Part shown: in pieces, positions 9,019 to 28,694 of the stretch | How the letters are laid out: each line of letters starts with the position of its first letter | How positions within the stretch are numbered: the first letter of the stretch is position 1 | IMG/VR virus record: IMGVR_UViG_3300020020_000093 | Coordinates: 1-40,938 of that record | Direction: 5' to 3' (one strand) | From: a virus | DNA length: 40,938 nt | Made by a program: the position numbers and the translations under genes | Notes under the pieces: generated by a model | The model's input: only the letters and a program-made list of their open reading frames with translations | Told to the model about the DNA's origin: nothing | Databases searched by the model: none

Positions 9019-9424
9019 GCGTGGCTTTCCGCAGGCGGGACCGCTCGATCTTCCGCATGGCGGCGAGAGCCTTCCGGCCCGGACGGTGGATGTCCCGCAG
9101 CCCATGCTCCGCAGCGGCGGCGCCGCTGGCGAATAGCGGGACGGTAGTGTCTGGAAGAGGAACCAGTTCCCCGGTCACAGATGCCAGCACGCGCAACGCC
9201 ATCAACTCCTTGCCCCGTCCACTGCGCTCATGGCAGACCGCCCATCCGGTGCAGAGGAAGTTGGGAGAGGTATGGCAGTGGAAGGGGCCGAGAGGCTGCT
9301 CTCCGGTGGGCTTGTCGTATTCAGGGAGTTTGTTGTACTCATGGGCGCCCCATAGCCCGGATGGCACGTCCCGGCGGTAGGGACAGGTCTCGCAGGGCTG
9401 CTCCCGGCATCGAGGCGCACTCAT
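8999..9424 (-). CDS. DUF6283-like cysteine-rich protein (141 aa)
   Basis: The ATG at 9424 overlaps the upstream gene's stop and opens MSAPRCREQPCETCPYRRDV. The PCETCPYRRDVPSG signature near the N-terminus, with later Cys/His pairs (FHCHTSPNFLCTGWAVCH), matches the DUF6283 family as I know it from phages and actinobacterial genomes. The paired Cys/His suggest a metal-binding fold. The C-terminal ~40 residues are basic. Last gene of a three-gene ATGA-coupled run; function unknown. Confidence 0.7.
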   Translation of the reverse strand: MSAPRCREQPCETCPYRRDVPSGLWGAHEYNKLPEYDKPTGEQPLGPFHCHTSPNFLCTGWAVCHERSGRGKELMALRVLASVTGELVPLPDTTVPLFASGAAAAEHGLRDIHRPGRKALAAMRKIERSRLRKATQKWPVA

Positions 9425-9741
9425 GGCGCAGCCCTCCGCGGACCCGCCTTGCCAGCCTTGGGCGGATCGATGGGGTTGTGCCGATAGAACCAGGCGCACA
9501 GGGGAGCCAGCGGGTTGGCGCGGACGATGTCCGTATTGCCGAATACCCGCCATGCCTCGCGCCCTTCCCATGTGATGGTGAAACCGTAGCCTTTCTCATA
9601 CCGGATCCAGCCGCGCATCAGCAGGCTGCGGAAGGGGCGCTGATCGAGCGTGGCTGCTTCAGTGAGGCTCATGAACTTGTTCTCCCCGAGCTTCACAAAG
9701 ATGCGGAGGAGGGGATACTGGCGGTTGGAGAGGGTAGTCAT
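9421..9741 (-). CDS. Putative winged-helix-like protein (106 aa)
   Basis: ATGA overlaps on both sides place it in a coupled leftward operon. The first ~60 residues read like a winged helix: helix RQYPLLRIFVKL, then SLTEAATLDQRPFRSLLMRGWI, then a strand-turn-strand wing RYEKGYGFTITWEG. The C-terminus is Pro/Arg-rich. It could be a DNA-binding regulator of the control region, but it lacks a clear family signature. Confidence 0.65.
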   Translation of the reverse strand: MTTLSNRQYPLLRIFVKLGENKFMSLTEAATLDQRPFRSLLMRGWIRYEKGYGFTITWEGREAWRVFGNTDIVRANPLAPLCAWFYRHNPIDPPKAGKAGPRRAAP

Positions 9742-10319
9742 TTGGCTGCGCTCCGGGCCGCGGCGAGTGCCTCGATATCAGCGACGGCATAGGTGGATAG
9801 AGCCGCGCCCCTTCGCCCCGCGCCTTGGACACGGATGGATGGCGGATCGCCGCCATTGTTCTTGAACACGTAGTCCAGGGATTTGGGCGATATGCCGATC
9901 ACCTTGGCGGCGCCGATCTTGGTGTATCGGCCATCGATCATCTCTTCGGGGGAAAAGACTTTGACCGTCTTGCTGCGCGCACCCATGCGCCGCGCCATTT
10001 CCGCCTTGCGCTCTTCCGGGGAGAGGCGGGACCAGTAGTTGTCTGTTGGGCCTTTCACTCCAGCGGGTCTGCCGCGCTTCGGGGAGGTGGCCGTAAGCGC
10101 CTCCAGGGACGCCTCAGCCGCCTGGAGGGTCTTGAGGGACCGCTTCGGCTTCTCGACGCCGTTGTGGGCCATCTGTGCGCCTTGGAGCAGGCTCTGGAGT
10201 TCATGGGCGAGGAACTCTTCGATCTTAGGCTTGATGTATTGCAGCCCTGCTGCTATCGAGAACTTCCCGAGTTGCAGGAATAGGGCTTGCTGCGGGTCTT
10301 CGTTGTACTTCTTGGGCAT
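9738..10319 (-). CDS. Putative DNA-binding protein (193 aa)
   Basis: The ATG at 10319 opens MPKKYNEDPQQALFLQLG. The N-terminal half is helical. A basic region with an AT-hook-like SPKRGRPAGVKG lies near residues 79-90. The C-terminal part (about 128-155) contains a helix-turn-helix-like segment, YTKIGAAKVIGISPKSLDYV, ending in a Gly/Arg-rich tail. The AT-hook plus HTH suggests binding to the AT-rich control region at 10894-11389, but this is inference. Its stop overlaps the next gene's start. Confidence 0.65.
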   Translation of the reverse strand: MPKKYNEDPQQALFLQLGKFSIAAGLQYIKPKIEEFLAHELQSLLQGAQMAHNGVEKPKRSLKTLQAAEASLEALTATSPKRGRPAGVKGPTDNYWSRLSPEERKAEMARRMGARSKTVKVFSPEEMIDGRYTKIGAAKVIGISPKSLDYVFKNNGGDPPSIRVQGAGRRGAALSTYAVADIEALAAARSAAK

Positions 10320-10355
10320 GTTGTTCCTTTGTCGTAACGGGTGTTGAGGGGGAGG

Positions 10356-10425
10356 ACGGGATGCGGTCCCGTTCTATGTTTAGACTTTGATCTTAGCTTG
10401 CCGGGAGCAGGCGGCAGGCTGCCGC
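10356..10425. other. Two stem-loops in the gap between leftward genes
   Basis: ACGGGA-TGCGG-TCCCGT (10356-10372) and the near-perfect palindrome GCGGCAGGCTGCCGC (10411-10425) lie between the stop of the 10438 gene and the start of the 10319 gene. Neither has a T-run on the minus strand, so attenuation or mRNA processing is as likely as termination. Confidence 0.45.
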
Positions 10426-10437
10426 TTTGGGGCTGAT

Positions 10438-10893
10438 TCAGAGGGGAGATGGGGACGGTGGGGCACCGGAGTCTCCTTTCGCGTAGGGGAGCAGCCAATC
10501 GACGCCGTAGACGGCATGGGAGCGGCAGGATTGGCAGGGCTGGTGCTTGGCGCCGCGGGACGCAGCGGGGACGAGGTGTCCGCACTCCAGGCAGAAGCCG
10601 CGGGGGATGGCGGATTGGGATTCGGCAAGGATGGCCGCAGGGGTGATGGACTCATGCCAGGAGTGGACAGGGGGAGGGTTGACGGGTTCAAAGACCCAAT
10701 TGCCTGATGCCGGATCCCGGCGCTGTATCAGGAAGCCTTTGGACAGGAGAGCAAACAGGGTTCTCAGTGCGCCGGATCCGGTGGTGGAAGGGGGAGCGGG
10801 AAATACACCTTTCTCGCGGACCATGTTGATGTACTTTGTCTGACGCTCGTTGAGCGGCGCCATGTTGAGGGGATGCGTGTTGCGGGGAGTCAT
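10438..10893 (-). CDS. Hypothetical zinc-ribbon protein (151 aa), first leftward gene
   Basis: The start is at 10893, or at in-frame ATGs a few residues later (MAPLNERQ). The N-terminal ~60 residues look like a winged helix (LNERQTKYINMVREKGVF..., LRTLFALLSKGFLIQRRD). A zinc-ribbon-like motif, CLECGHL and CQSC, lies at about residues 101-123. It would be the first gene transcribed leftward from the 10894-11389 control region, a common place for a phage regulator. DNA binding is likely; identity unknown. Confidence 0.65.
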   Translation of the reverse strand: MTPRNTHPLNMAPLNERQTKYINMVREKGVFPAPPSTTGSGALRTLFALLSKGFLIQRRDPASGNWVFEPVNPPPVHSWHESITPAAILAESQSAIPRGFCLECGHLVPAASRGAKHQPCQSCRSHAVYGVDWLLPYAKGDSGAPPSPSPL

Positions 10894-10917
10894 TGGAATG
10901 ACACCTTATCACAGGAG

Positions 10918-10972
10918 AGTGTACCGTTGGGGGGCAAAAGTGTAGTGTTCGTGTAGTCGAAAGTGTACCGTT
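10918..10972. repeat. Left repeat cluster: AGTGTACCGTT x2 and GTGTAG elements
   Basis: AGTGTACCGTT occurs at 10918-10928 and 10962-10972, 44 bases apart. GTGTAGTGT lies at 10940-10948. An 18-base arm, CGTGTAGTCGAAAGTGTA, lies at 10950-10967. The arm and the second 11-mer overlap, so bound proteins would be close or mutually exclusive. Confidence 0.85.
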
Positions 10973-11099
10973 TCGATCAATAAACATCGGCATTAGTGCA
11001 TACAGTGTATGGATATATAGGATCTTTTACGCATATGTGGGTGTATATAGGTATATACGCAATGTACATGCATATGTGCATAGGGGGGGATCCCCGCTA

Positions 11100-11200
11100 A
11101 ACGGTACATTCCATACACGAAAGCCCGTAAACATTGGTCGAAGTACTACACTTTCGACTACACGGACACTACACGATTGGGGAAAATGACTACACTTTCG
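11100..11200. repeat. Right repeat cluster, inverse of the left
   Basis: AACGGTACATT (11100-11110) is the reverse complement of the left 11-mer with one mismatch. TACACTTTCGACTACACG (11147-11164) is the perfect 18-base reverse complement of 10950-10967. ACACTACAC (11166-11174) mirrors GTGTAGTGT. ACTACACTTTCG recurs at 11145-11156 and 11189-11200. Confidence 0.85.
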
Positions 11201-11373
11201 CCTTCCCTTCTCCTTTTGGCAGGCGCCGCGGGGTGGAAGGCGGTATCTCCTGGCTGCACGGGCGAAGGATGGGCGGGATATTGGGCGGAAACGGCCCTTC
11301 CTGCCATCGGGGCGCCCCGGGTGAGGGGTTGGAGGGTCTGGAGCGGTTGTGCTTGCGTATAGGCGCGGAATCG

Positions 11374-11382
11374 TGGTATTCG
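11374..11382 (+). promoter_or_regulatory. Possible extended -10 just before the small terminase gene
   Basis: TGGTATTCG sits seven bases before the ATG at 11390. It resembles the TGG-TATACC and TGG-TACACT boxes before the portal and large terminase genes. If it is active, the mRNA would be nearly leaderless. The box is weak (TATTCG), and AGGTGG could instead serve as a ribosome site. Confidence 0.35.
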
Positions 11383-11389
11383 AGGTGGT

Positions 11390-11839
11390 ATGGCAGGCCA
11401 TCCGGTAAAGCGTGCGATGTTGGCGGCGATAGCCGATAAGGGCGGGGTTGAGTGGGTCTACGCGCAGGTGGCCAACGGCAGGACGATGTGGAGTATTGCA
11501 CGGGAGTTGGAGACGAGTCGCAATGTGCTGGCGGACTGGCTGAATGTAGACGCGGAACGCAAGGCGATGTACCACGCCGCGCGTGCGGCCAGCGCCGCCG
11601 CTTTGGCCGAGGAATCGATGGAAATAGCGGACAAAGCCAGCGAACTCGGCACGTCCAAGGCGCGGTTGCAGATGGAGTCCAGGCAGTGGCTGGCTGGCGT
11701 CTACAATCGCGAGGAGTTTGGGGTCAAGCAGACCGCGGTACAGGTCAACATCGGCGCCTTGCATATCGATGCGATGCGGCAGTTTAACGCCAGCAACCCA
11801 TCCACGCAAGTCATTGATACCAAAGCACTTCCTGAATAG
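11390..11839 (+). CDS. terS: Terminase small subunit, Sf6 gp1-like (149 aa)
   Basis: The small subunit recognises the packaging start site on phage DNA and hands it to the large subunit. The N-terminal part holds a helix-turn-helix (TMWSIARELETSRNVLADWLNVD, about residues 32-54). A long helical region follows (AAALAEESMEIADKA, ARLQMESRQWLAGVYNREEFG) that closely parallels the Sf6 small terminase pattern (EIADNA ... ARLRVDTRKWALARM). It is unusual in lying far from terL (27279), alone on its strand between two leftward clusters. The mirrored repeats upstream and the tandem repeat downstream are candidate recognition sites. Confidence 0.75.
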   Translation: MAGHPVKRAMLAAIADKGGVEWVYAQVANGRTMWSIARELETSRNVLADWLNVDAERKAMYHAARAASAAALAEESMEIADKASELGTSKARLQMESRQWLAGVYNREEFGVKQTAVQVNIGALHIDAMRQFNASNPSTQVIDTKALPE

Positions 11840-11997: not shown

Positions 11998-12059
11998 GGG
12001 TCCGGGGCGCCGCGGGTCCGGGGCGCCGCGGGTCCGGGGCGCCGCGGGTCCGGGGCGCT
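11998..12059. repeat. 16-bp tandem repeat, 3.9 copies
   Basis: GGGTCCGGGGCGCCGC is repeated exactly at 11998-12013, 12014-12029 and 12030-12045, then as a 14-base partial copy at 12046-12059 (last two bases CT). Each unit holds the palindrome GGCGCC. It lies about 160 bp after the small terminase stop, in a non-coding gap (11840-12242) with no convincing gene. It could be a packaging (pac) or protein-binding site, or simply a slippage-prone GC tract. Confidence 0.85.
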
Positions 12060-12187
12060 GGCGGCGCGGCGGCGCGGTGGCCCCCCTTCGATCAGCGGCG
12101 GGGAGCGAGATAGTTGTGGGACTCCTCAGGCACCGTCCCCAATAAATTCCCATGTGCAATGGGACCGACGGCCCTATAAACCGTCCC

Positions 12188-13408: not shown

Positions 13409-13722
13409 TTCACATCCTTCCGTTCTTGGCATCCATTGTGCCATAAACACCAACCCCCTCCCCGAAATACCTCTCAACAGGTAACCCAAGTTACTCCCCT
13501 ATACGCGTATACGCATGAACCTGCGAATGACACTCCACCGCCCAAAGATTTATTCATTCCCCACATTTATTTGCAGCCATTAATTCGTCATTATTCGGAC
13601 CCATTCAAATGACCATTAATTCCCGCTATCCCCCACATTCCACAAACTAAGGTACTGCAACAAAACTTCCCATTGTTTACATCTCAGGGACAAAACTTCC
13701 CACTGACCCCCTGAAACCGCTA
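13409..13722. promoter_or_regulatory. Second divergent control region
   Basis: A non-coding, AT-richer gap between a leftward operon and a rightward one. It contains GTAAC-CCAA-GTTAC (13481-13494), the 12-base palindrome TATACGCGTATA (13500-13511, readable as a -10 in either direction), and a direct repeat next to the rightward promoter. It probably carries the leftward promoter for 12243-13408 and operators for both directions. Confidence 0.6.
13660..13705 (+). repeat. Direct repeat ACAAAACTTCCCAYTG, 30-bp period
   Basis: The copies at 13660-13675 and 13690-13705 match at 15 of 16 bases and start exactly 30 bases apart, about three DNA turns. The second ends 17 bases before the -35 box. Same-face spacing beside a promoter suggests cooperative binding of a regulator. 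Confidence 0.75.
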
Positions 13723-13751
13723 TTGACACCACCTCTAAGCAGGAATATTCT
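13723..13751 (+). promoter_or_regulatory. Near-consensus sigma-70 promoter, leaderless
   Basis: TTGACA (13723-13728), a 17-base spacer and TATTCT (13746-13751). Transcription should start about 13757-13760, at or just before the ATG at 13761, so the mRNA would be leaderless. This is the best promoter match in the window. Confidence 0.75.
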
Positions 13752-13760
13752 CAAACTCAA

Positions 13761-15312: not shown

Positions 15313-15315
15313 TTG

Positions 15316-15324
15316 TGCTATACT
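15316..15324 (+). promoter_or_regulatory. Extended -10 promoter for the integrase pair
   Basis: TGC-TATACT (15316-15324) is an extended -10 with no clear -35. TTGTGC overlapping it repeats the half-site of the palindrome GCACAAGTTGTGC at 7738-7750. The ATG at 15332 lies seven bases downstream, so the transcript would be leaderless. Confidence 0.5.
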
Positions 15325-15331
15325 CATGGGC

Positions 15332-15556
15332 ATGACCAAAGCAAAACCAAGGATGAACTCCAGCGGCATCCCCTACGGGTGCGGATCGCTCCAGCTTCGC
15401 GCCAATTACTACTGGATGATCTACTACGATGCGGAAGGCAACCGCCACCAGGCCAACACCTGGGCCACCACCGAGGACGAGGCCCGGAGCGTCCTCGCCA
15501 TCAAGGCCATCGATGTCCAGAAAGCACGCCTTGCCGCATTGGAGCAACTCATATGA
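15332..15556 (+). CDS. Stand-alone integrase arm-binding-domain-like protein (74 aa)
   Basis: The start is ATG 15332, or 15326 two codons earlier; neither has a ribosome site. PYGCGSLQLRANYYWMIYYDAEGNRHQAN then TEDEARSVLAIKAID matches the three-strand-plus-helix pattern (G-SL..R...W.I.Y...G..) at the N-terminus of many tyrosine integrases, where it binds arm-type att sites. Here it is a separate gene, ATGA-coupled to the integrase, which carries its own similar N-terminal region. It could be a second arm-binding factor or a regulator. Confidence 0.6.
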   Translation: MTKAKPRMNSSGIPYGCGSLQLRANYYWMIYYDAEGNRHQANTWATTEDEARSVLAIKAIDVQKARLAALEQLI

Positions 15557-16854
15557 AGACCCCGGATCAGCCTATCGCCCAATACACCAAGGCGCATATC
15601 CTCCGCGCTCACGGGTCCGAGGATGGGTCAGTCCGCATCGCTCCCCGCAGCAAGGTCAAGAAGTGGCAGGGGATCTATCACGTCACCAAAACAAGAGCGG
15701 ATGGGACCACCGGACGCAACACGATGTACCGGATTATCGGCCTCTGCGCGAAGATGACCAAACGCGAGGCTGAGGTCGAGCATCGGGAGTGGTGCAAGGA
15801 TTTCCACGGCGCCAACCGTGCCGTGGCCACCACCCGCACTGGAAAGCAAGCGGTCACCGTGGCCGATATCGCCACCGACTATATCCGTTTCAAGCGGTGG
15901 GATAAGCCGGGGGGCGGCAACGGGATGGCCAGCCTGATCAAGAACGATATCATCGGCGGCTTGGGCCATCTGAAGCTCAAGGAGACCACCGCGGAGGATG
16001 TCCGCAGTTTTGTCTTCTCGCTGGAGAATCGGGTCCATGCTCCCCGTCCAAATCGCCCCACCTACAAGCCAAAGACCGGGGCCAGCGTATCGGTCGTCAA
16101 CAAGATTACGGGTATTCTCCGCGGGATGTTTGCGCTGGCGCAGGAGCGGGATCTGATCGTCAAGAATCCCACCCAGTCCCAACTCGTCAAGATCGAAAAG
16201 CCGGAAGGACTCCCCCCGGTGAGCAAGCCCTTGTTCTCCCCCAAGCACCTCCCGGCTCTCCTCTCCCAACTGAACGAGCGGGACTCGCTTGTTGTCTGGA
16301 TCTCCTTCCTCGCTGGCACCCGTCCCAACGAAACCTTTGCCATCCACGGGGACGATATCGGTCCCGGCTACATTGCCATCCGCCATGCTCTCGACGTGAA
16401 GCGGAAGATCAAGTTGACCAAGACCGACGAGCCTCGCATCGTCGCGATTCCTCCCGTCCTTGATGGGAAGATCCAGGCGTGGATCCGCGGCAACGGCATC
16501 GGCGCGGACGATCTCCTTTTCCTCAATCAGCGAGGCAAGCCCGTGAGCCGGAATGCCTTCCGGGACCAGATCCTCAAGCCTGCCGCCGAACGTGCAGGAC
16601 TGGCCTCGATTGGTGTAGACTTCCGTATGCTGCGACGGTCATTCGGCACGGTGGCTGCGGCTCTCGGCGCGGACGTGAAATCGATCCAGACTCAACTCGG
16701 CCACTCTCAACCGGACATGTCCTATCGCGAATATGTGCAGCCCGTTGCCGCCATGCAGATGGCCTATGTGACCAAGGTGGAGCAGGTGCTTTTAGGACTG
16801 GAAGAGATGCCTTACGACATCACCAAAAAGATGGGGTCTCAACGTGTCCAGTAA
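15553..16854 (+). CDS. int: Tyrosine recombinase / phage integrase (433 aa)
   Basis: It catalyses site-specific integration and, with an excisionase, excision. The ATG at 15553 overlaps the upstream stop; the frame is open further upstream but that part is a shadow of the previous gene. N-terminal arm-domain-like region about residues 25-80 (WQGIYHVTKTRADG), core-binding helices about 95-225, catalytic domain about 230-420. Catalytic Arg in GTRPNE (near 256), the second box FRMLRRSFGT with Arg in place of the usual His of HxxR, LGHS (near 383) and the nucleophile Tyr in YREYVQ (near 395). The catalytic domain is complete. Confidence 0.9.
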   Translation: MKTPDQPIAQYTKAHILRAHGSEDGSVRIAPRSKVKKWQGIYHVTKTRADGTTGRNTMYRIIGLCAKMTKREAEVEHREWCKDFHGANRAVATTRTGKQAVTVADIATDYIRFKRWDKPGGGNGMASLIKNDIIGGLGHLKLKETTAEDVRSFVFSLENRVHAPRPNRPTYKPKTGASVSVVNKITGILRGMFALAQERDLIVKNPTQSQLVKIEKPEGLPPVSKPLFSPKHLPALLSQLNERDSLVVWISFLAGTRPNETFAIHGDDIGPGYIAIRHALDVKRKIKLTKTDEPRIVAIPPVLDGKIQAWIRGNGIGADDLLFLNQRGKPVSRNAFRDQILKPAAERAGLASIGVDFRMLRRSFGTVAAALGADVKSIQTQLGHSQPDMSYREYVQPVAAMQMAYVTKVEQVLLGLEEMPYDITKKMGSQRVQ

Positions 16855-17104
16855 GCACACCACTTGGCACACCACTTGCCCTCAAAACGCCACTTTTCGG
16901 CACACCAGGAAGCAGTTTCTGCAACGTAAGTTATACAAAACACTAGTTATGGCCATGCTACATGATCAGGACCGGATGCCATGAAACCCAATAAACACGG
17001 GCCTCCTAGAGGTCCAGGCACACCATCAGCACACCACCTGTGCAGAATACGAACCACCAAGGCGCTCCTCACGGAGCGCCTTTCGCTTTTGGCTGGCACA
17101 CCAC
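16855..17104. other. attP: Probable attP with six arm-type repeats
   Basis: Six direct copies of GCACACCA lie just behind int: 16855, 16867, 16900, 17018, 17029 and 17096 (four extend to GCACACCAC). Three lie on each side of a repeat-free stretch of about 110 bases (16908-17017) that holds small palindromes (GCAGTTTCTGC at 16912-16922, CCTCCTAGAGG at 17002-17012) and TTATACAAAACACTAG. This is the arrangement of integrase arm sites flanking a core. The exact crossover core cannot be told without a host sequence. Confidence 0.7.
17059..17090. terminator. Strong, probably bidirectional terminator
   Basis: AAGGCGCTCC (17059-17068), loop TCAC, GGAGCGCCTT (17073-17082): ten perfect base pairs followed by TCGCTTTT, with AA at the other end. 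It separates the integrase unit from the replication operon. Confidence 0.8.
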
Positions 17105-21155: not shown

Positions 21156-22360
21156 CCAACGGAGCGGCTCACAACGAGCGGTCCCACTGTGAGCATTCCC
21201 CTTCATCGGCCTATCGATGGATGGCCTGTCCCGGATCGATCCAGCTATGCCGCCGGATGCCGCCAGCGCCAACCTCCTCTTACGCCGAGGAGGGGACATC
21301 GGCGCATGAACTCGGCGAGTACTGCCTGCGGCATCGGGACATCGTCAACGAGTGGGTGGGCAAGGAATGGAACGGCCAGAAACTAAGCGCAGACTTTGTC
21401 GATGCCGTCTACACCTACGTCGATTATGTTCGCAAGCTCATCCAGGATGCGGACTGGTATGCCATCGAGCGGCAGTTCTTCCTGGACCCGCTCGATCCGC
21501 CAGCGCCGATGCACGGGACTGCGGACTTCCTCTCCCTGACCAAGGGGCGCCTGGACGTGGTCGATTACAAGCATGGGCAAGGCGTCCCGGTGGAAGTTGA
21601 GGGGAACAAGCAACTCCGCTACTACGCTCTCGGTGCGCTCCTCTCCCTCCATCAAGCGCAGGCCGATAAGGTGCAGACGGTGCGGATCACGGTGGTGCAG
21701 CCTCGCGCACCGCACCCGGACGGTCCCATCCGCTCTGAGGAGATCTCGGTTATCGAACTGCTGGACTTTGCGCTGGACCTCTTCGATGGGGTGCAGGCTA
21801 CGCTGGCCGAGGCGCCCAAGCTGGTACCGGGGGACCACTGCCGATTCTGTCCCGCCCATGCCCAATGTCCTGCTCTTCGGGATGCGGCGCTGGAGGTGGC
21901 TAAAACGGAGTTCGCCGCCGAGGATTCCCTCGCCGTCAGTCCTCCACCGGAAGCTCTGACCACCGAGGAGTTAGCGCGGTTGATGTCCCGGTTCCATTTG
22001 GTGGAGCAGTGGATGGCGTCCGTTCGCGAACACGCCTACAACGTCCTGCTGGCAGGCGGGGAGATGCCGGGATGGAAACTGGTCCCCAAACGAGCCACCC
22101 GTAAGTGGCGCGACGAGAAGGCACTGGGGGCTTGGGCAAGGAAGGAAAAGATCCCCGTCGCGCAGATCTTTGAGCCGCAGACCCTCCGCTCCCCGGCTGC
22201 GCTCGAAAAGGAGATCGGCAAGAACCGGATCCCCGAGGAATTGATCGAGAAGACTTCCTCCGGTCTCACTTTGGCGGAAGCGAGCGACCCTCGCCCTGCC
22301 GTACTTCAACTCTCAGCCGCCGATGAATTCTCGGCGTTAACCCCACAGGAACTCCAATGA
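21152..22360 (+). CDS. DUF2800 family Cas4/RecB-like nuclease (402 aa)
   Basis: SSAYRWMACPGSIQLC near the N-terminus, GTADFL near residue 122, DVVDYKHGQG near 135 and NKQLRYYALGAL form the PD-(D/E)XK nuclease core. CRFCPAHAQCPA near 230 completes a probable Cys cluster, as in Cas4/AddB-type iron-sulfur nucleases. DUF2800 genes sit in phage replication cassettes with the DUF2815 and PolA genes, as here, and are thought to process DNA ends. It overlaps both neighbours by four bases. Confidence 0.82.
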   Translation: MTNGAAHNERSHCEHSPSSAYRWMACPGSIQLCRRMPPAPTSSYAEEGTSAHELGEYCLRHRDIVNEWVGKEWNGQKLSADFVDAVYTYVDYVRKLIQDADWYAIERQFFLDPLDPPAPMHGTADFLSLTKGRLDVVDYKHGQGVPVEVEGNKQLRYYALGALLSLHQAQADKVQTVRITVVQPRAPHPDGPIRSEEISVIELLDFALDLFDGVQATLAEAPKLVPGDHCRFCPAHAQCPALRDAALEVAKTEFAAEDSLAVSPPPEALTTEELARLMSRFHLVEQWMASVREHAYNVLLAGGEMPGWKLVPKRATRKWRDEKALGAWARKEKIPVAQIFEPQTLRSPAALEKEIGKNRIPEELIEKTSSGLTLAEASDPRPAVLQLSAADEFSALTPQELQ

Positions 22361-22962
22361 ACCCAACGAATGCAACGGCGAAGTCTCCGAAATCAGAAGT
22401 CTTCAGGACACCCCCGGTCATCCTCTCCTATCCGGCTCTATTCGAGCCGCGGCTTCCCGGCCCCAATGCCACCAAACCCATCTATAGCTGCGCTCTCGTA
22501 TTCCCCGCGGAAACGCCACCGGAGGTCCGCAAGAATCTCGATGCTCTCATCGACGCCTGCGGACGCGAGAAGCTTGGCGCCAAGTACGACTCCCTGAAGA
22601 GATCGGGCAAGCTGAAATTGCCCATCCATCCGACTACCGAGGAGGAGGAAGCCAAAGGCTATCCGCCGGGAAGCTTCTTCATCAACTGCCGCAGCGACTC
22701 CGCTCCGGGCATTGTAGGTCCGGTGGCTGGCGTCGATGGCAAGCCTACCGAGATCACCAATCCGCTGGAGCTATATCCGGGCTGCATCGTCCGCGCCACC
22801 ATCAACTTCTACGGCTTTAACGCTGGCGGGGGGCAAGGTGTGGGGACGGGCCTGCGGAACATTCAGAAGATCAAGGAGGGTACTCGCCTGGACAACCGGA
22901 AGAAGGCGAAGGACGACTTCGACCCGATTGCGGAAGCGGAGATGGACGACGCACTGCTGTAG
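22357..22962 (+). CDS. DUF2815 family, probable ssDNA-binding protein (201 aa)
   Basis: VFRTPPVILSYPALFEPRLP, then KPIYSCALVFP, then GSFFINCRSD, ELYPGCIVRATINFYGFN and a late GLRNIQKIKEGTRLD match DUF2815, an OB-fold-type family likened to T7 gp2.5. The acidic C-terminus (DPIAEAEMDDALL) is typical of single-strand binding proteins and would recruit polymerase and helicase. It overlaps DUF2800 by ATGA and lies 11 bases before the polymerase. Confidence 0.8.
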   Translation: MNPTNATAKSPKSEVFRTPPVILSYPALFEPRLPGPNATKPIYSCALVFPAETPPEVRKNLDALIDACGREKLGAKYDSLKRSGKLKLPIHPTTEEEEAKGYPPGSFFINCRSDSAPGIVGPVAGVDGKPTEITNPLELYPGCIVRATINFYGFNAGGGQGVGTGLRNIQKIKEGTRLDNRKKAKDDFDPIAEAEMDDALL

Positions 22963-22973
22963 GAGATCGAGCC

Positions 22974-24920
22974 GTGATTATCAACGTCGATTTCGAGAGC
23001 AGGTCTCTTCTGGATCTGCGGAAGGTGGGGCTGTATCCATATGCAGCCCACCCCTCCACCGTGATCCTCTGCGCGGCCTATGCCGCGAACGATGGTCCGG
23101 TGCATCTATGGATGCGCGGGGATCCGGCCCCCGCGCTTCTGATCCGGGCGCTCCTGGAAGGCGCCGAATGGCACGCCTGGAACGCTCAGTTTGAGCGGGT
23201 CATGTGGCGCGACTGTTGGGCGCGTCCAGGGGAGCCGATGCACGCCTTCGGCGCCCCTGCGCTGGAGGAGTGGCACTGCTCGATGGCCCGAGGCGGGATC
23301 TACGGACTCCCGTTGGGACTGGCGCAGGCAGCATATGCATTGAAGATTCCCGAGACCAAAGATATGGGCGGCCGCGCCCTCATGCTCCGCATGTGCCGCC
23401 CCCGCAGCTTCAATGCGGACGGCTCTCCGGTCTGGTGGGAAGAGCGGGAAAAGATGGACGAGTTGGGGCGCTACTGCGCCAATGACGTGAAGGTGGAACG
23501 GGCCATCGCGAAACGGCTCAACCCGTTGTCGGACGTGGAGCGGCGGGTGTACCTGCTCGATCAGACGATCAACGACAGAGGCGTGCTGCTCGACGTGGAG
23601 TTGGCCAAGGCGTCCAAAGACTGCGCTATCCTCGCCGCCCTCCGCGCCGATGTCGAACTCGACAACATCACCTCCGGGGCCGTTCGCGCCACCAACAGAC
23701 TCGCAGACTTGAAGCGGTGGGTCTGCGCTCAAGGCGTCAAGGTGGAGACCCTCGCCATCGGCGCCATTGAGGAGATGCTCCACGGCAAGTTGCCGCAGCC
23801 CGTGGCCGAGGCTCTGGCCATCCGCGCCGATGCCGCCAAGTCCAGCGTGGCCAAGCTGGACTCCATGCTCGAATACGCGCAGTTGGACGGGCGGCTGCGG
23901 GGACTGCATCAGTACTGCGGCGCAGCTACGGGACGCTGGAGCGGACGTGGGGTCCAGCCACAAAACTTTCCCCGCGGCACGATACGCGATGTCGAACGGC
24001 TGATCCCACTGGTGATGGAGCAAGACCTGGACATGATCGACGCCTACGCTCCGGTGATGGAGGTACTCTCTTCGCTGCTCCGGGCGCACCTGTGTGCCGA
24101 GGAGGGCTTCTCCCTGATGGCTGGCGATTACGCAGCCATCGAGGCGCGAGTGCTGGCGTGGCTGGCAGGCCAGGAGGATCTGCTGGCGTTGTTCCGCACG
24201 GGCGGGGATCCCTATGTGGCAATGGCCGGGAAGGTCTATCACACAACCAAGGTCTCCAAGGACCAACGGGCTTTCGGCAAGGTTGCCGTACTGGGCTTGG
24301 GCTACCAGATGGGCCGGAAGACCTTCCGGGACAACTGCGCCAAACGCGGCATCGACATCACCGAGGAGTTCGCCGCCGAGACGGTCCAGATCTATCGCGA
24401 GACCAATGACCGCATCAAGGCTCTGTGGGATGCGATGGATGCAAACGCCATCAGAGCCGTCCGCTCCCCCGGCTACCGTACCCACTGCGGCAGGATCACG
24501 TTTATCATGCGCCACGGCTGGCTGGAGATGATCCTCCCCGGTGGACGCTCCCTCTACTATGCGGAACCGCAACTGATCATGACGCAGACCCCGTGGGGTG
24601 AAGACCGCGAGTGCGTGAGTTGCATGAACAACTCCACTATGACCAAGCAGTGGACCCCCAAGAAGATGTACGGCGGACTGTGGGTGGAGAATGCCGTTCA
24701 GGCCGTCGCACGGGACGTATTGGCCGAGGCCATGCTCAAGCTCGAATCGGCTGGATTTCCTCTGGTTCTGACCGTCCACGATGAGATCGTGGCCGAGGTT
24801 CCGGGCGGCGCCGGGAGCCGTCTGGCTGAGTTCAAGGCCATTATGTCCGAGGTACCGGAATGGGCCGCGGGTTGCCCCATCGATGTCGAAGCGTGGGAAG
24901 GGATGCGATACCGGAAATGA
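22974..24920 (+). CDS. polA: Family A DNA polymerase with 3'-5' exonuclease domain (648 aa)
   Basis: Replicates phage DNA. The GTG at 22974 follows AGGAG. The N-terminal exonuclease has DFESRS (residues 5-10), WNAQFER and YCANDVKVER. Polymerase motif A is GDYAAIEARVLAWLAG (near 384), motif B KVAVLGLGYQMG (near 435) and motif C TVHDEIVAEV (near 600). All catalytic acidic residues are present. A 5'-nuclease domain is absent, as usual in phage enzymes. A GRWSGRGVQPQNFPRG template-binding segment lies near 322. Its stop overlaps the primase-helicase start. Confidence 0.93.
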   Translation: MIINVDFESRSLLDLRKVGLYPYAAHPSTVILCAAYAANDGPVHLWMRGDPAPALLIRALLEGAEWHAWNAQFERVMWRDCWARPGEPMHAFGAPALEEWHCSMARGGIYGLPLGLAQAAYALKIPETKDMGGRALMLRMCRPRSFNADGSPVWWEEREKMDELGRYCANDVKVERAIAKRLNPLSDVERRVYLLDQTINDRGVLLDVELAKASKDCAILAALRADVELDNITSGAVRATNRLADLKRWVCAQGVKVETLAIGAIEEMLHGKLPQPVAEALAIRADAAKSSVAKLDSMLEYAQLDGRLRGLHQYCGAATGRWSGRGVQPQNFPRGTIRDVERLIPLVMEQDLDMIDAYAPVMEVLSSLLRAHLCAEEGFSLMAGDYAAIEARVLAWLAGQEDLLALFRTGGDPYVAMAGKVYHTTKVSKDQRAFGKVAVLGLGYQMGRKTFRDNCAKRGIDITEEFAAETVQIYRETNDRIKALWDAMDANAIRAVRSPGYRTHCGRITFIMRHGWLEMILPGGRSLYYAEPQLIMTQTPWGEDRECVSCMNNSTMTKQWTPKKMYGGLWVENAVQAVARDVLAEAMLKLESAGFPLVLTVHDEIVAEVPGGAGSRLAEFKAIMSEVPEWAAGCPIDVEAWEGMRYRK

Positions 24921-27238
24921 CTGCCGTCGAGTTCGCTCAATTGGCCTATGGACCCCTGTTGCCCATCGGTCCCCCCAACGGGATCATTGCGCCCAATAGC
25001 GGTCTCAAGCCCGAGAACATGGGCAAGTCTCCTGCCATGCTCAGGAACGGATTCTGGATGGGATACCCGTGGCCTAAGATCATCTTCAGCCCTTCGCAGA
25101 TCGATGCATGGGGCGCAGGCATCGGGCTGCTCCTGGGCGAACTGGTGGCCATCGACATCGATGTCCGCGAGGAGCGGGTATCGAAACTGATCCGTTCGAT
25201 TGTGGTGCGCCATCTCGGCAAGTGCGTGGCCATGCGGGTGGGGGAGGCGCCCAAGTGTGCCTTCATCTGCCGCAGTCAGGGGACCGCTCTGCTACGGCGC
25301 CAGATCCACTTCACGTATGAGGATAAGAAGCACATGGTGGAACTCCTGGCAGAGGGCCAGCAGATTGTCCTGTGGGGCATCCACCAACGCACCGGGGATC
25401 CCTACACATGGCCATTCGGCATCCCTCCTGTTGCGGATCTCCCCTACGTGGATCATGTGCTGATCGATGCCATGTTCGCCGATATCGAGCAGCAACTGAA
25501 TGGTCTGAATATCATCACCAGCCCCACCGGGGGCGGACAGATAACCAGACGCGAAGACGTGGATCAGGACTGGCTCATCGGCCCCATCGACCGTGTCCGG
25601 GAAGCCGTCGAGCATTGCCCCAACACCCGCGCCAACTACCCGTCCCGGCAGGATGCCGTCCGTATGTGCGCCATGATCAAGGCGGCAACGCGCAACGAGC
25701 CGGATGCGGGTTTTGAGATCTGGATGAAGTGGGGGATGGAGTATCCAGACAACACCGAGGACTTCTGCATCGGTCTCTGGGAGACTGTCGGATCCTCCTT
25801 TTCCGTTGGGGCGGAAGCCCTCTACCGGGAAGCCCGGAAGCACGGGCTATCCACTGCGAAATACGACTTTGAGCCATTGGAGATCGAGATGCCGTCAAGC
25901 GTGATTCCCCTGCTATCGGCAGGCTGCACCGTCAAGAACTCCGAGATCTGGCTGGCTGAGAATCTGGTCGAGAAGTATGGCGATGATCTGCGGTGGGTGC
26001 GGGACCGCAAGATCTGGTACGTCTACCGGGGGGACATCTGGGTGGCGGACGTGTCGCTCATCATGAACTATTCGATTGAGTTCTGCTCCGGTATCGCCGC
26101 CCTTGTCGCTAACGATTCCCAACTGAAGAGCGCCGAGATCAAAGCCCGTGCGATAGCATCGGCGCACACGGTCAAAGCGGTGGCGCAACTCTCCGAGTCC
26201 ATGCCCAAGGTGCAGGCCAATGTGGACACCTTCGATGCGGACAAAGACCTGCTCGGCGTGCCGGGGGGAATCGTGGACCTGCGGACGGGCGCCATGCTTC
26301 CGCTCGACCGGGAGCGGTACATCTCCCGGCGGACGACGGTGGCCCCGGTAAAGGCCGCGGCGCCGTTGTGGGAAGCCTTCCTGCTGGAAGCCTGCGGCGG
26401 CAATCTGACTAAGGTGGCCTACCTCAAGCGGATGGCAGGCTACTGCCTCACGGGGCGCACCGAGGAGCACGTATTCTTCCTGCTATGGGGGAGCGGCGGC
26501 AACGGCAAGAGCACCTTCTTGAACTGCCTCGCCGCCATCCTGGGCGAGTACTGTGCGACGGCTGCGATGGACACCTTCACCGCCCATAAGGATGCCGCTC
26601 ACCCCGCGGGGATCGCCGCCTTGGCAGGGGCGCGGGTGGTGCAGTGCCAGGAGACCCGTCCCGGCCAGACATGGGACGAGGGGCTGGTTAAACAGTTAAC
26701 GGGAGGGGACGCAGTCACGGCTCGGTTCATGTTTGGCAACCCCTTCACCTTCATCCCTCTTTTCAAGCTGATCTTCTCCGGGAATCACCAGCCGCATATC
26801 TCCTCAGTCGGACCTGCTATGGCGCGGCGCATCCATGTGGTTCCGTTCCAGTGCCAGCCGCGGGTGGTCAACAAGCTACTCGGTGAGCAGTTGCGCGACG
26901 AGTATCCGGCTATCCTGGCGTGGATGATCGAAGGCGCACGCGAGTGGTACACAGAAGGCTTGAACCCACCGCAGGAAGTGCTGATGGCCACCGAGGACTA
27001 TCTGGAGTCGGAGGATACGATGGGGCGCTGGCTCCTGGAAAGTTGTGAGACCGAGACCCAAGGCCGCGGAAGGTCAGTGGAGCTATACGAGAACTGGCAG
27101 GACTGGTGCAACAGGCAGGGGTCGAACCCCGGCTCGAATGTGGTATTCGCCAAGAAGCTGAAGGAGCGGGGATTCCAGAGTCAACGCTACAACTCCGGGT
27201 TTGAATGGCATGGCCTCGTTCTCAAGAAAGCGGAGTAA
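24917..27238 (+). CDS. Primase-helicase: AEP-like primase plus D5/SF3 helicase (773 aa)
   Basis: Makes primers and unwinds DNA at the fork. The ATG overlaps the polymerase stop. The N-terminal part has GIGLLLGELVAIDIDV, giving the DxD of archaeo-eukaryotic-type prim-pols (near residue 80). A D5-type linker region (about 350-500) follows. The SF3 helicase has Walker A GSGGNGKSTFLNCL (near 525), a Walker B-like ARVVQCQETRPGQ, and motif C KLIFSGNHQPHI (near 620). This matches the P4/D5-type phage primase-helicase family. It ends the replication operon just before the terminase promoter. Confidence 0.88.
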   Translation: MTAVEFAQLAYGPLLPIGPPNGIIAPNSGLKPENMGKSPAMLRNGFWMGYPWPKIIFSPSQIDAWGAGIGLLLGELVAIDIDVREERVSKLIRSIVVRHLGKCVAMRVGEAPKCAFICRSQGTALLRRQIHFTYEDKKHMVELLAEGQQIVLWGIHQRTGDPYTWPFGIPPVADLPYVDHVLIDAMFADIEQQLNGLNIITSPTGGGQITRREDVDQDWLIGPIDRVREAVEHCPNTRANYPSRQDAVRMCAMIKAATRNEPDAGFEIWMKWGMEYPDNTEDFCIGLWETVGSSFSVGAEALYREARKHGLSTAKYDFEPLEIEMPSSVIPLLSAGCTVKNSEIWLAENLVEKYGDDLRWVRDRKIWYVYRGDIWVADVSLIMNYSIEFCSGIAALVANDSQLKSAEIKARAIASAHTVKAVAQLSESMPKVQANVDTFDADKDLLGVPGGIVDLRTGAMLPLDRERYISRRTTVAPVKAAAPLWEAFLLEACGGNLTKVAYLKRMAGYCLTGRTEEHVFFLLWGSGGNGKSTFLNCLAAILGEYCATAAMDTFTAHKDAAHPAGIAALAGARVVQCQETRPGQTWDEGLVKQLTGGDAVTARFMFGNPFTFIPLFKLIFSGNHQPHISSVGPAMARRIHVVPFQCQPRVVNKLLGEQLRDEYPAILAWMIEGAREWYTEGLNPPQEVLMATEDYLESEDTMGRWLLESCETETQGRGRSVELYENWQDWCNRQGSNPGSNVVFAKKLKERGFQSQRYNSGFEWHGLVLKKAE

Positions 27239-27278: not shown

Positions 27279-28694
27279 ATGCCAGCGCCTGCTGCGGAGT
27301 CCCCTTTCATCCATTTCATGCGGTTGTATCATGCGGACCCGTGCTTGTTCGTTAGGGAGGTGTTGGGGGCGACACCGGATCCGGCGCAGGCTGAGATTCT
27401 CCAGGCTGTAGCGGCAGGACACCGCAGGCTCTCTATTCGGAGCGGTCATGGAATCGGCAAGTCTACGACAGCGGCGTGGCTGATGCTCTGGACGCTCTTC
27501 ACTAAGTTTCCAAGCAAGACCGTGGTGACGGCGCCAACTACCGCACAGTTGTTCGATGCGCTGTTTAGCGAATTGAAACGGTGGGCATCGAAGCTTCCCC
27601 TTCCCCTTCAGGAACTGATCGAAGTTAAGGCCGAACGCATCGAGTTGAAGAACGCTCCATCGGAGTCATTCATCACCGCCAGAACGAGCCGTGCAGAGCA
27701 GCCGGAAGCCCTGCAAGGCGTCCACAGTGATTTCGTTCTCCTCATTGCCGATGAAGCTTCGGGCATCCCGGAGTCCGTATTCGAGGCGGCAAGCGGCTCG
27801 ATGTCCGGGCATCATGCGACGACGATCCTGTTGGGCAATCCGGTGCGATCAAGCGGTTTCTTCTACGACACCCATCATAAACTCGCCCCCTACTGGAAGA
27901 CCTTTGTCGTCCCCTGCCACGCCAGTCCCCGCGTCTCTCCTGCCTACATCGAGGAGATGGCGACACGCTACGGCATCGACTCCAATGCCTACCGCATTCG
28001 CGTTCTTGGTGAGTTCCCCCGCGCAGACGACGACACGCTTATCGCAATGGAATTGATCGAAGGGTCAACGACTCGCGATGTCGATCCGATCCTGGGCGCC
28101 CCTCTCGTCTGGGGTCTGGACATCGCAAGGTACGGCCCGGACTCGACCGTGCTGCTACAGCGCCGCGGCAACGCCGTCACCTCGATCACCCGCTGGAGCA
28201 GGACAGATACGATGGAGACCGTAGGGCGGGTCAAGATGGCATGGGATACCGCGGCGCCGCAGGATCGCCCCGAGGAGATCTTGGCCGATGTCATCGGCAT
28301 TGGCGCTGGCGTGGTGGATCGTCTGCGCGAACTCAAGCTTCCGGTGCGGGGGGTCAACGTGAGCGAGTCCCCATCGATCAAGGGCGGACACCACAACCTC
28401 CGGGCCGAGCTTTGGTGCAGCATGAAGGCATGGTTTGAGAAGCGCGATGTCCGCATCCCGCCGAACGAGCATCTGATCTCCGAACTCGCCGCCTGCAAGT
28501 TTCGCATCACTTCGGCTGGCAAGATTCAGATCGAGTCCAAGGATGAGGCACGCAGCCGCGGACTCCCCTCTCCCGATGTCGCGGACGCATTGATGCTCAC
28601 CTTCGCCAGCACTGCGGCGACATCGATCCACGGCTGGTCCCCATCCGGGGCTTGGTCTAAGCCATTGCGCCGGAATCAGTTGGGTATTGTTTAA
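27279..28694 (+). CDS. terL: Terminase large subunit (471 aa)
   Basis: The ATPase-nuclease motor that cuts concatemers and fills the capsid. Walker A SGHGIGKST (near residue 58), Walker B LLIADEASG (near 158) and coupling LLGNP form the ATPase. The RNase H-like nuclease carries acidic residues in GLDIARYGPD (near 280), DVIGIGAG (near 338) and SPDVADAL (near 432). All expected motifs are intact. The ATG has no ribosome site and follows a -10 by nine bases (leaderless). Unusually, the small subunit is about 16 kb away at 11390. Confidence 0.92.
   Translation: MPAPAAESPFIHFMRLYHADPCLFVREVLGATPDPAQAEILQAVAAGHRRLSIRSGHGIGKSTTAAWLMLWTLFTKFPSKTVVTAPTTAQLFDALFSELKRWASKLPLPLQELIEVKAERIELKNAPSESFITARTSRAEQPEALQGVHSDFVLLIADEASGIPESVFEAASGSMSGHHATTILLGNPVRSSGFFYDTHHKLAPYWKTFVVPCHASPRVSPAYIEEMATRYGIDSNAYRIRVLGEFPRADDDTLIAMELIEGSTTRDVDPILGAPLVWGLDIARYGPDSTVLLQRRGNAVTSITRWSRTDTMETVGRVKMAWDTAAPQDRPEEILADVIGIGAGVVDRLRELKLPVRGVNVSESPSIKGGHHNLRAELWCSMKAWFEKRDVRIPPNEHLISELAACKFRITSAGKIQIESKDEARSRGLPSPDVADALMLTFASTAATSIHGWSPSGAWSKPLRRNQLGIV

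Follow-up and report, generated by a model that had tools for sequence, protein, structure and literature searches.

An array of mirrored GTGTA repeats, lying between divergent genes of an uncultivated phage, is probably the origin from which that phage replicates. The DNA analysed here—hereafter 'the window'—is the complete 40,938-bp IMG/VR virus record IMGVR_UViG_3300020020_000093, which encodes an integrase, an exonuclease, a single-stranded DNA (ssDNA)-binding protein, a family-A DNA polymerase, a Prim-Pol/D5_N primase-helicase, a large terminase (TerL), a portal and an SU10-type major capsid protein. Given this set of replication and structural genes, the window represents a tailed phage that brings its own replication module. 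The array occupies an intergenic gap flanked by a leftward gene unit (10438-10893 and on) and by the rightward gene for the terminase small subunit (TerS). We propose that it belongs to the origin type of the P4-family and phage-inducible chromosomal island (PICI) primase-helicases, and that it would be read by the product of 24860-27238, encoded 13.7 kb away. The original prediction had left the choice between a replication origin and a cooperative looping operator; its first option is favoured by the architecture of the array, by the position and architecture of the arrays in relatives, by covariation of repeats with the primase-helicase C-terminus, and by published PICI and P4 origins.

Anatomy of the GTGTA array and its proposed initiator

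Every repeat element named in the original prediction was recovered. The 18-bp perfect inverted repeat CGTGTAGTCGAAAGTGTA has one half on each side of the core; AGTGTACCGTT starts at 10918 and again at 10962 and returns, inverted and with one mismatch, as AACGGTACATT at 11100-11110; and GTGTAGTGT at 10940 is paired with ACACTACAC at 11166. At least ten GTGTA boxes in 300 bp had been claimed, and we counted 11 in 277 bp: six on the plus strand, followed by five on the minus strand. The symmetry around an AT-rich centre, placed near 11050 before, likewise held, with the centre refined to about 11057. Start-to-start distances between the outer four boxes of each side are exactly mirrored (21-11-12 and 12-11-21 bp), which places these boxes on approximately the same side of the helix. 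The left-arm boxes follow the consensus (A/C)GTGTA(G/C)(T/C).

This arrangement is not expected by chance. When the window was dinucleotide-shuffled 200 times, at most 4 GTGTA fell within any 300 bp, and 1000 shuffles of the gap itself reached 5 at most. Mirrored base matches within the array numbered 67, as compared to a shuffle maximum of 49, and no 5-mer cluster elsewhere in the window is as strong (p = 8e-13 for the array). Between the arms lies a putative DNA-unwinding element: the lowest-GC 80-nt stretch of the entire record (GC 0.34) starts at 10976, inside this core, as does the longest perfectly alternating purine-pyrimidine run.

The candidate initiator matches TIGR01613 ('phage/plasmid primase, P4 family') with E 1.2e-79 and 267 bits, against a cut-off of 109, and additionally D5_N (E 2.3e-21) and Prim-Pol, so that the window replicon does possess a P4-family primase-helicase. 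Modelling of its last 111 residues returned a winged-helix topology at moderate confidence (pLDDT, predicted local distance difference test, 63), with the RFX DNA-binding domain (E 0.002) and the C-terminus of African swine fever virus PrimPol (E 0.009) as nearest folds.

We infer that primase-helicase subunits would bind the phased GTGTA boxes through this C-terminal winged helix and, as the arms face one another, that two helicase rings could assemble on them head to head. The AT-rich, alternating core would then melt between the two rings, and the enzyme's own primase domain, together with the family-A polymerase and the ssDNA-binding protein, would start bidirectional replication. The exact mirroring of the arms would make the array a clean substrate for testing whether two hexameric helicases of a bacterial virus load head to head.

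Arrays and candidate initiators in related phages

TerS relatives were matched in 30 of 31 phages collected via the large terminase, backing the assignment of the window gene, and arrays lie upstream of TerS in relatives, too. Two of them, G003 and G004, encode primase-helicases 34% identical to that of the window. Directly upstream of TerS, both carry GAAGG boxes, then an AT-rich core, then CCTTC boxes; the cores have a GC content of 0.26 and 0.29, respectively, the lowest of the fetched halves, and that of G004 holds a 30-nt alternating purine-pyrimidine run.

A further 24 phages share the gene order primase-helicase (here with Toprim and RecA-like domains), array, a ~225-aa gene, TerS and TerL. 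Within the 3-9 kb regions fetched, the top 7-mer cluster fell in the gap just after the primase-helicase gene in 24/24 cases, this gap making up 8% of the fetched region; a binomial figure overstates the evidence, because the phages are related. Repeats recur with a period of 10-11 bp and differ in sequence by lineage (GGTAACAAAC, GATCGGAAGC, GGACAAATGG, GGTCTACATATG and GGAGACATTT).

In this group, the repeats track the end of the enzyme. Primase-helicases associated with different repeat types aligned at 44-82% identity over most of their length, whereas their last ~120 residues were 24-34% identical across types, as opposed to 63-74% within a type. Repeat-region similarity correlated with C-terminal identity (r 0.74; 18 non-redundant phages), and the correlation persisted (partial r 0.69-0.73) when controlling for the enzyme core, TerS, the downstream gene or the exonuclease; each of these, controlled for the C-terminus, gave a partial r of at most -0.06. 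Two pairs illustrate the pattern: G015 and G011 (core 95.6%, TerS 98.6%, C-terminus 19% identical) and G027 and G030 (core 97.1%, TerS 96.4%, C-terminus 55% identical) have different repeats. Exchange of only the C-terminal domain plus the repeats is what a matched protein-site pair would predict.

We tentatively take this further: the repeats and the last ~120 primase-helicase residues might constitute an exchangeable specificity cassette, with the origin of the window uncoupled from its enzyme gene and laid out for two mirrored rings beside a packaging gene. If so, near-identical phages would exchange the domain jointly with the repeats that match it, giving several distinct replicon types and possibly a barrier of incompatibility or superinfection. 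The relatives offer natural swaps of a C-terminal domain with its repeats, rendering a helicase-initiator recognition code directly testable. For an uncultivated phage group, an origin, its initiator and the binding domain are thereby predicted, all from sequence alone.

As a separate observation, the arrays of 18 relatives (L428-L453, gap after the primase-helicase gene) contain a conserved hairpin, CGAGAGTCTA...GACTCG, positioned between direct and inverted repeat whatever the repeat sequence and absent from the window.

The records L141, L153 and L167 also contain mirrored arrays of the AGTGTAGT type around very AT-rich cores, located about 0.2 kb past a P4-family primase domain, beside a Prim-Pol and at a distance of 5 kb from a P4-family primase, respectively; a mirrored GTGTACTGCC array directly follows a VapE gene of L119. 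P4-family/VapE genes occurred on 7 target records, as compared to 2 control records, a suggestive excess. Among the families listed for bacterial genomes with the same motif, there was no association with primases. Two Bacteroidales genomes contain mirrored AACTACACTGA-type arrays (L293 7665-7992, L350 6473-7048) and no P4-family primase, and one further element with a P4-family primase (L454) lacked a TerS match and an obvious array.

By structural genes, the closest relative of the window is G001 (TerL 83%), in which we found neither a homologue of the window's primase-helicase nor a GTGTA array upstream of TerS. One of its genes, of 285 aa and matched by no family model, holds five internal GGAATCA repeats (L106 15479-15513), a layout that presumably resembles that of the lambda O gene and origin. 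By this analogy, G001, otherwise a close relative, would carry a different replication module.

Several points weigh against the window array being an origin read by this enzyme. First, the array (10.9-11.2 kb) is 13.7 kb from the primase-helicase gene, while PICI origins and most relatives' arrays adjoin theirs. A location immediately 3' of the initiator gene, typical of PICIs and Staphylococcus aureus pathogenicity islands (SaPIs), is seen in the 24 relatives and loosely in G003 and G004 (small genes intervene), and is not seen in the window, where TerL begins at 27279, directly behind the primase-helicase, whose end is at 27238. In the window, as opposed to most relatives, these two adjoin and have been separated from the array and TerS. 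Second, covariation was measured with Toprim/RecA-type enzymes, not with the P4 family, making the extension of the rule to the window conditional. Third, C-terminus and repeats physically adjoin in those relatives, and joint transfer by linkage therefore contributes to the covariation. Fourth, confidence in the C-terminal model is no more than moderate, and the model had no PDB match below E 0.001. Fifth, box counts by themselves are weak in G003 (P 0.02, marginal) and G004 (P 0.46, not significant); the evidence from these two lies in the common motif, place, order and core. Sixth, a scan for phased GTGTA triplets gave 61 raw matches against 107 for a reversed-motif control. A strong enrichment of such triplets was thus rejected, and only the intergenic bias (29/38 clusters versus 20/55 for the control) and the gene neighbourhood were used, as supporting evidence. 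Finally, GC skew, which the original prediction had suggested as a check, was of no help, since the switch at the array region runs from plus to minus, the reverse of a textbook origin. The skew over 10.5-13.5 kb flips abruptly near 12 kb, falling from about +0.25 to -0.2; a local G-richness of the terS strand is shared by G003 and G004.

Alternative readings and neighbouring sites

A phage regulator, such as the product of 10438-10893 or 9738-10319, could instead bind both arms cooperatively, loop the DNA and control the leftward operon together with TerS. The gap is indeed divergent, the phased boxes share one helix face, and the adjacent genes have weak DNA-binding-type matches. Yet G003 and G004 show the same architecture, and the leftward genes at 9421-10893 have no detectable homologue there, which speaks against the leftward products that had been put forward as binders; the third proposed binder, encoded at 11390-11839, is the terminase small subunit rather than a regulator. 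Arrays of the other relatives sit between co-oriented genes, and an operator does not require an AT-rich alternating core. A weak test of the array region for sigma-70-like promoters, with other promoter types outside its coverage, returned none. We therefore consider an operator in place of an origin unlikely. It is common for phage origins to serve as control regions as well, and the array may have an additional control role over neighbouring genes.

The position of the array directly upstream of terS, and near terS in relatives, together with the helix-turn-helix of TerS, raises the question of a packaging (pac/cos) site. This is very improbable: repeats differ between relatives whose TerS proteins are 96-99% identical, so that the site sequence does not follow TerS identity, and TerS adds nothing beyond the primase-helicase C-terminus (partial r -0.06). 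Moreover, the recognition helix of G001 TerS is almost the same as that of the window, yet G001 lacks the array. A better pac candidate is the 43-nt block at 12081-12123, which contains GCGAGATAGTTGTGG and is 84% conserved downstream of terS in G001 (L105 5458-5499); it may be a pac or another conserved site. Tandem GTCCGGGGCGCCGCGG units occupy 12000-12060, shortly downstream of terS.

Phage attachment (attP) regions look generally alike, with phased arm-type integrase sites and an AT-rich core, but the array can hardly be one, as it is not adjacent to the integrase gene, which has its own array of six GGTGTGC boxes (direct orientation, 11-12-bp steps, two groups ~110 bp apart) that are likely attP arm sites, and as G001 similarly carries TTCCGCA boxes in 11-bp steps around a tRNA-3'-end-like stretch beside its integrase (L106 6655-6890), likely its attP.

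Features of the second divergent gap of the window, at 13490-13760, are a pair of ACAAAACTTCCCA repeats, an alternating stretch of 18 nt (TATACGCGTATACGCATG) and, ahead of the rightward early genes, a promoter-like TTGACA/TATTCT pair; this gap is possibly a lysis-lysogeny control region. DNA similarity searches of the array region and of TerS against a phage collection returned no match, protein scans for relatives of the neighbouring genes returned none or one unrelated element, and an Rfam search matched no family.

Table 1 Coordinates of the array, its candidate initiator and other features of the window
Feature	Position	Strand	Basis or remark
Intergenic gap with the putative origin	10894-11389	.	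496 bp
Left iteron arm	10915-10972	+	Boxes at 10919, 10940, 10951, 10963; spacing 21-11-12
18-bp perfect inverted repeat, left half	10950-10967	+	Partner at 11147-11164
AT-rich core, proposed DNA-unwinding element	10973-11099	.	GC content scan
Two inner GTGTA boxes within the core	11005-11045	+	At 11005, 11041
Perfectly alternating purine-pyrimidine run, 21 nt	11062-11082	.	Longest in the window
GGGGATCCCC palindrome beside the inverted inner iteron	11086-11095	.	Direct reading
Inner right elements	11100-11118	-	AACGGTACATT and TACAC at 11114
Right iteron arm, inverted	11145-11203	-	Boxes at 11147, 11159, 11170, 11191; spacing 12-11-21
Prim-Pol/D5_N/P4-family primase-helicase, proposed initiator	24860-27238	+	Profile matches
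Terminase small subunit (TerS), Sf6-like	11390-11839	+	PF20901, E 4.5e-13; adjoins the array
Leftward gene	10438-10893	-	Weak DksA-type zinc-finger match, E 0.008; rival binder
Leftward gene	9738-10319	-	Very weak MerR-like match, E 0.015; rival binder
Integrase	15313-16854
Six GGTGTGC (GGCACACCA) boxes, likely attP arm-type sites	16855-17102	-	Directly after the integrase gene
ssDNA-binding protein	22357-22962
Family-A polymerase	22974-24920

Comparison with known replication systems

Judged by analogy, PICI origins and phage P4 would be the closest known cases to the proposed origin. PICI origins, which lie 3' of rep, are described as 'always' comprising two iteron sets with an AT-rich region between them, and a PICI pri-ori plasmid replicates (PMC6092414). 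Shared with PICIs and SaPIs are an initiator with helicase and primase functions and a modular pairing of rep and ori (PMC6092414). In contrast to the PICI origin, immediately 3' of rep, the window array lies at a distance from its enzyme gene and beside terS, and the element that replicates is a complete phage, with capsid genes of its own.

P4 likewise relies on a P4-family primase-helicase and has iterons (its type-1 repeats) 10-11 bp apart, an origin that lies between divergent genes at 2.1 kb from the alpha gene, and opposed iterons in crr. However, the P4 iteron is TGTTCACC, functions are divided between ori1 and crr, and ori1 is not a mirrored array. P4 alpha and the window enzyme are only 24% identical over the helicase part, and their C-termini do not align.

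The Cch2 helicase of the staphylococcal cassette chromosome mec (SCCmec) binds AAGTG iterons via its C-terminal domain (PMC7581432). It belongs to the same helicase family (D5_N/Primase_Cterm), and several of the window boxes include AAGTG; its three iterons, however, are packed into a single 23-bp block immediately after the gene, with no mirrored second arm described. ORF904 of the archaeal plasmid pRN1 combines a prim-pol, a superfamily 3 (SF3) helicase and a winged helix, as our candidate would, given its domains and its moderately confident model, but acts with a large stem-loop instead of iterons. The pRN1 origin still functions when moved elsewhere on the plasmid (PMC4234260).
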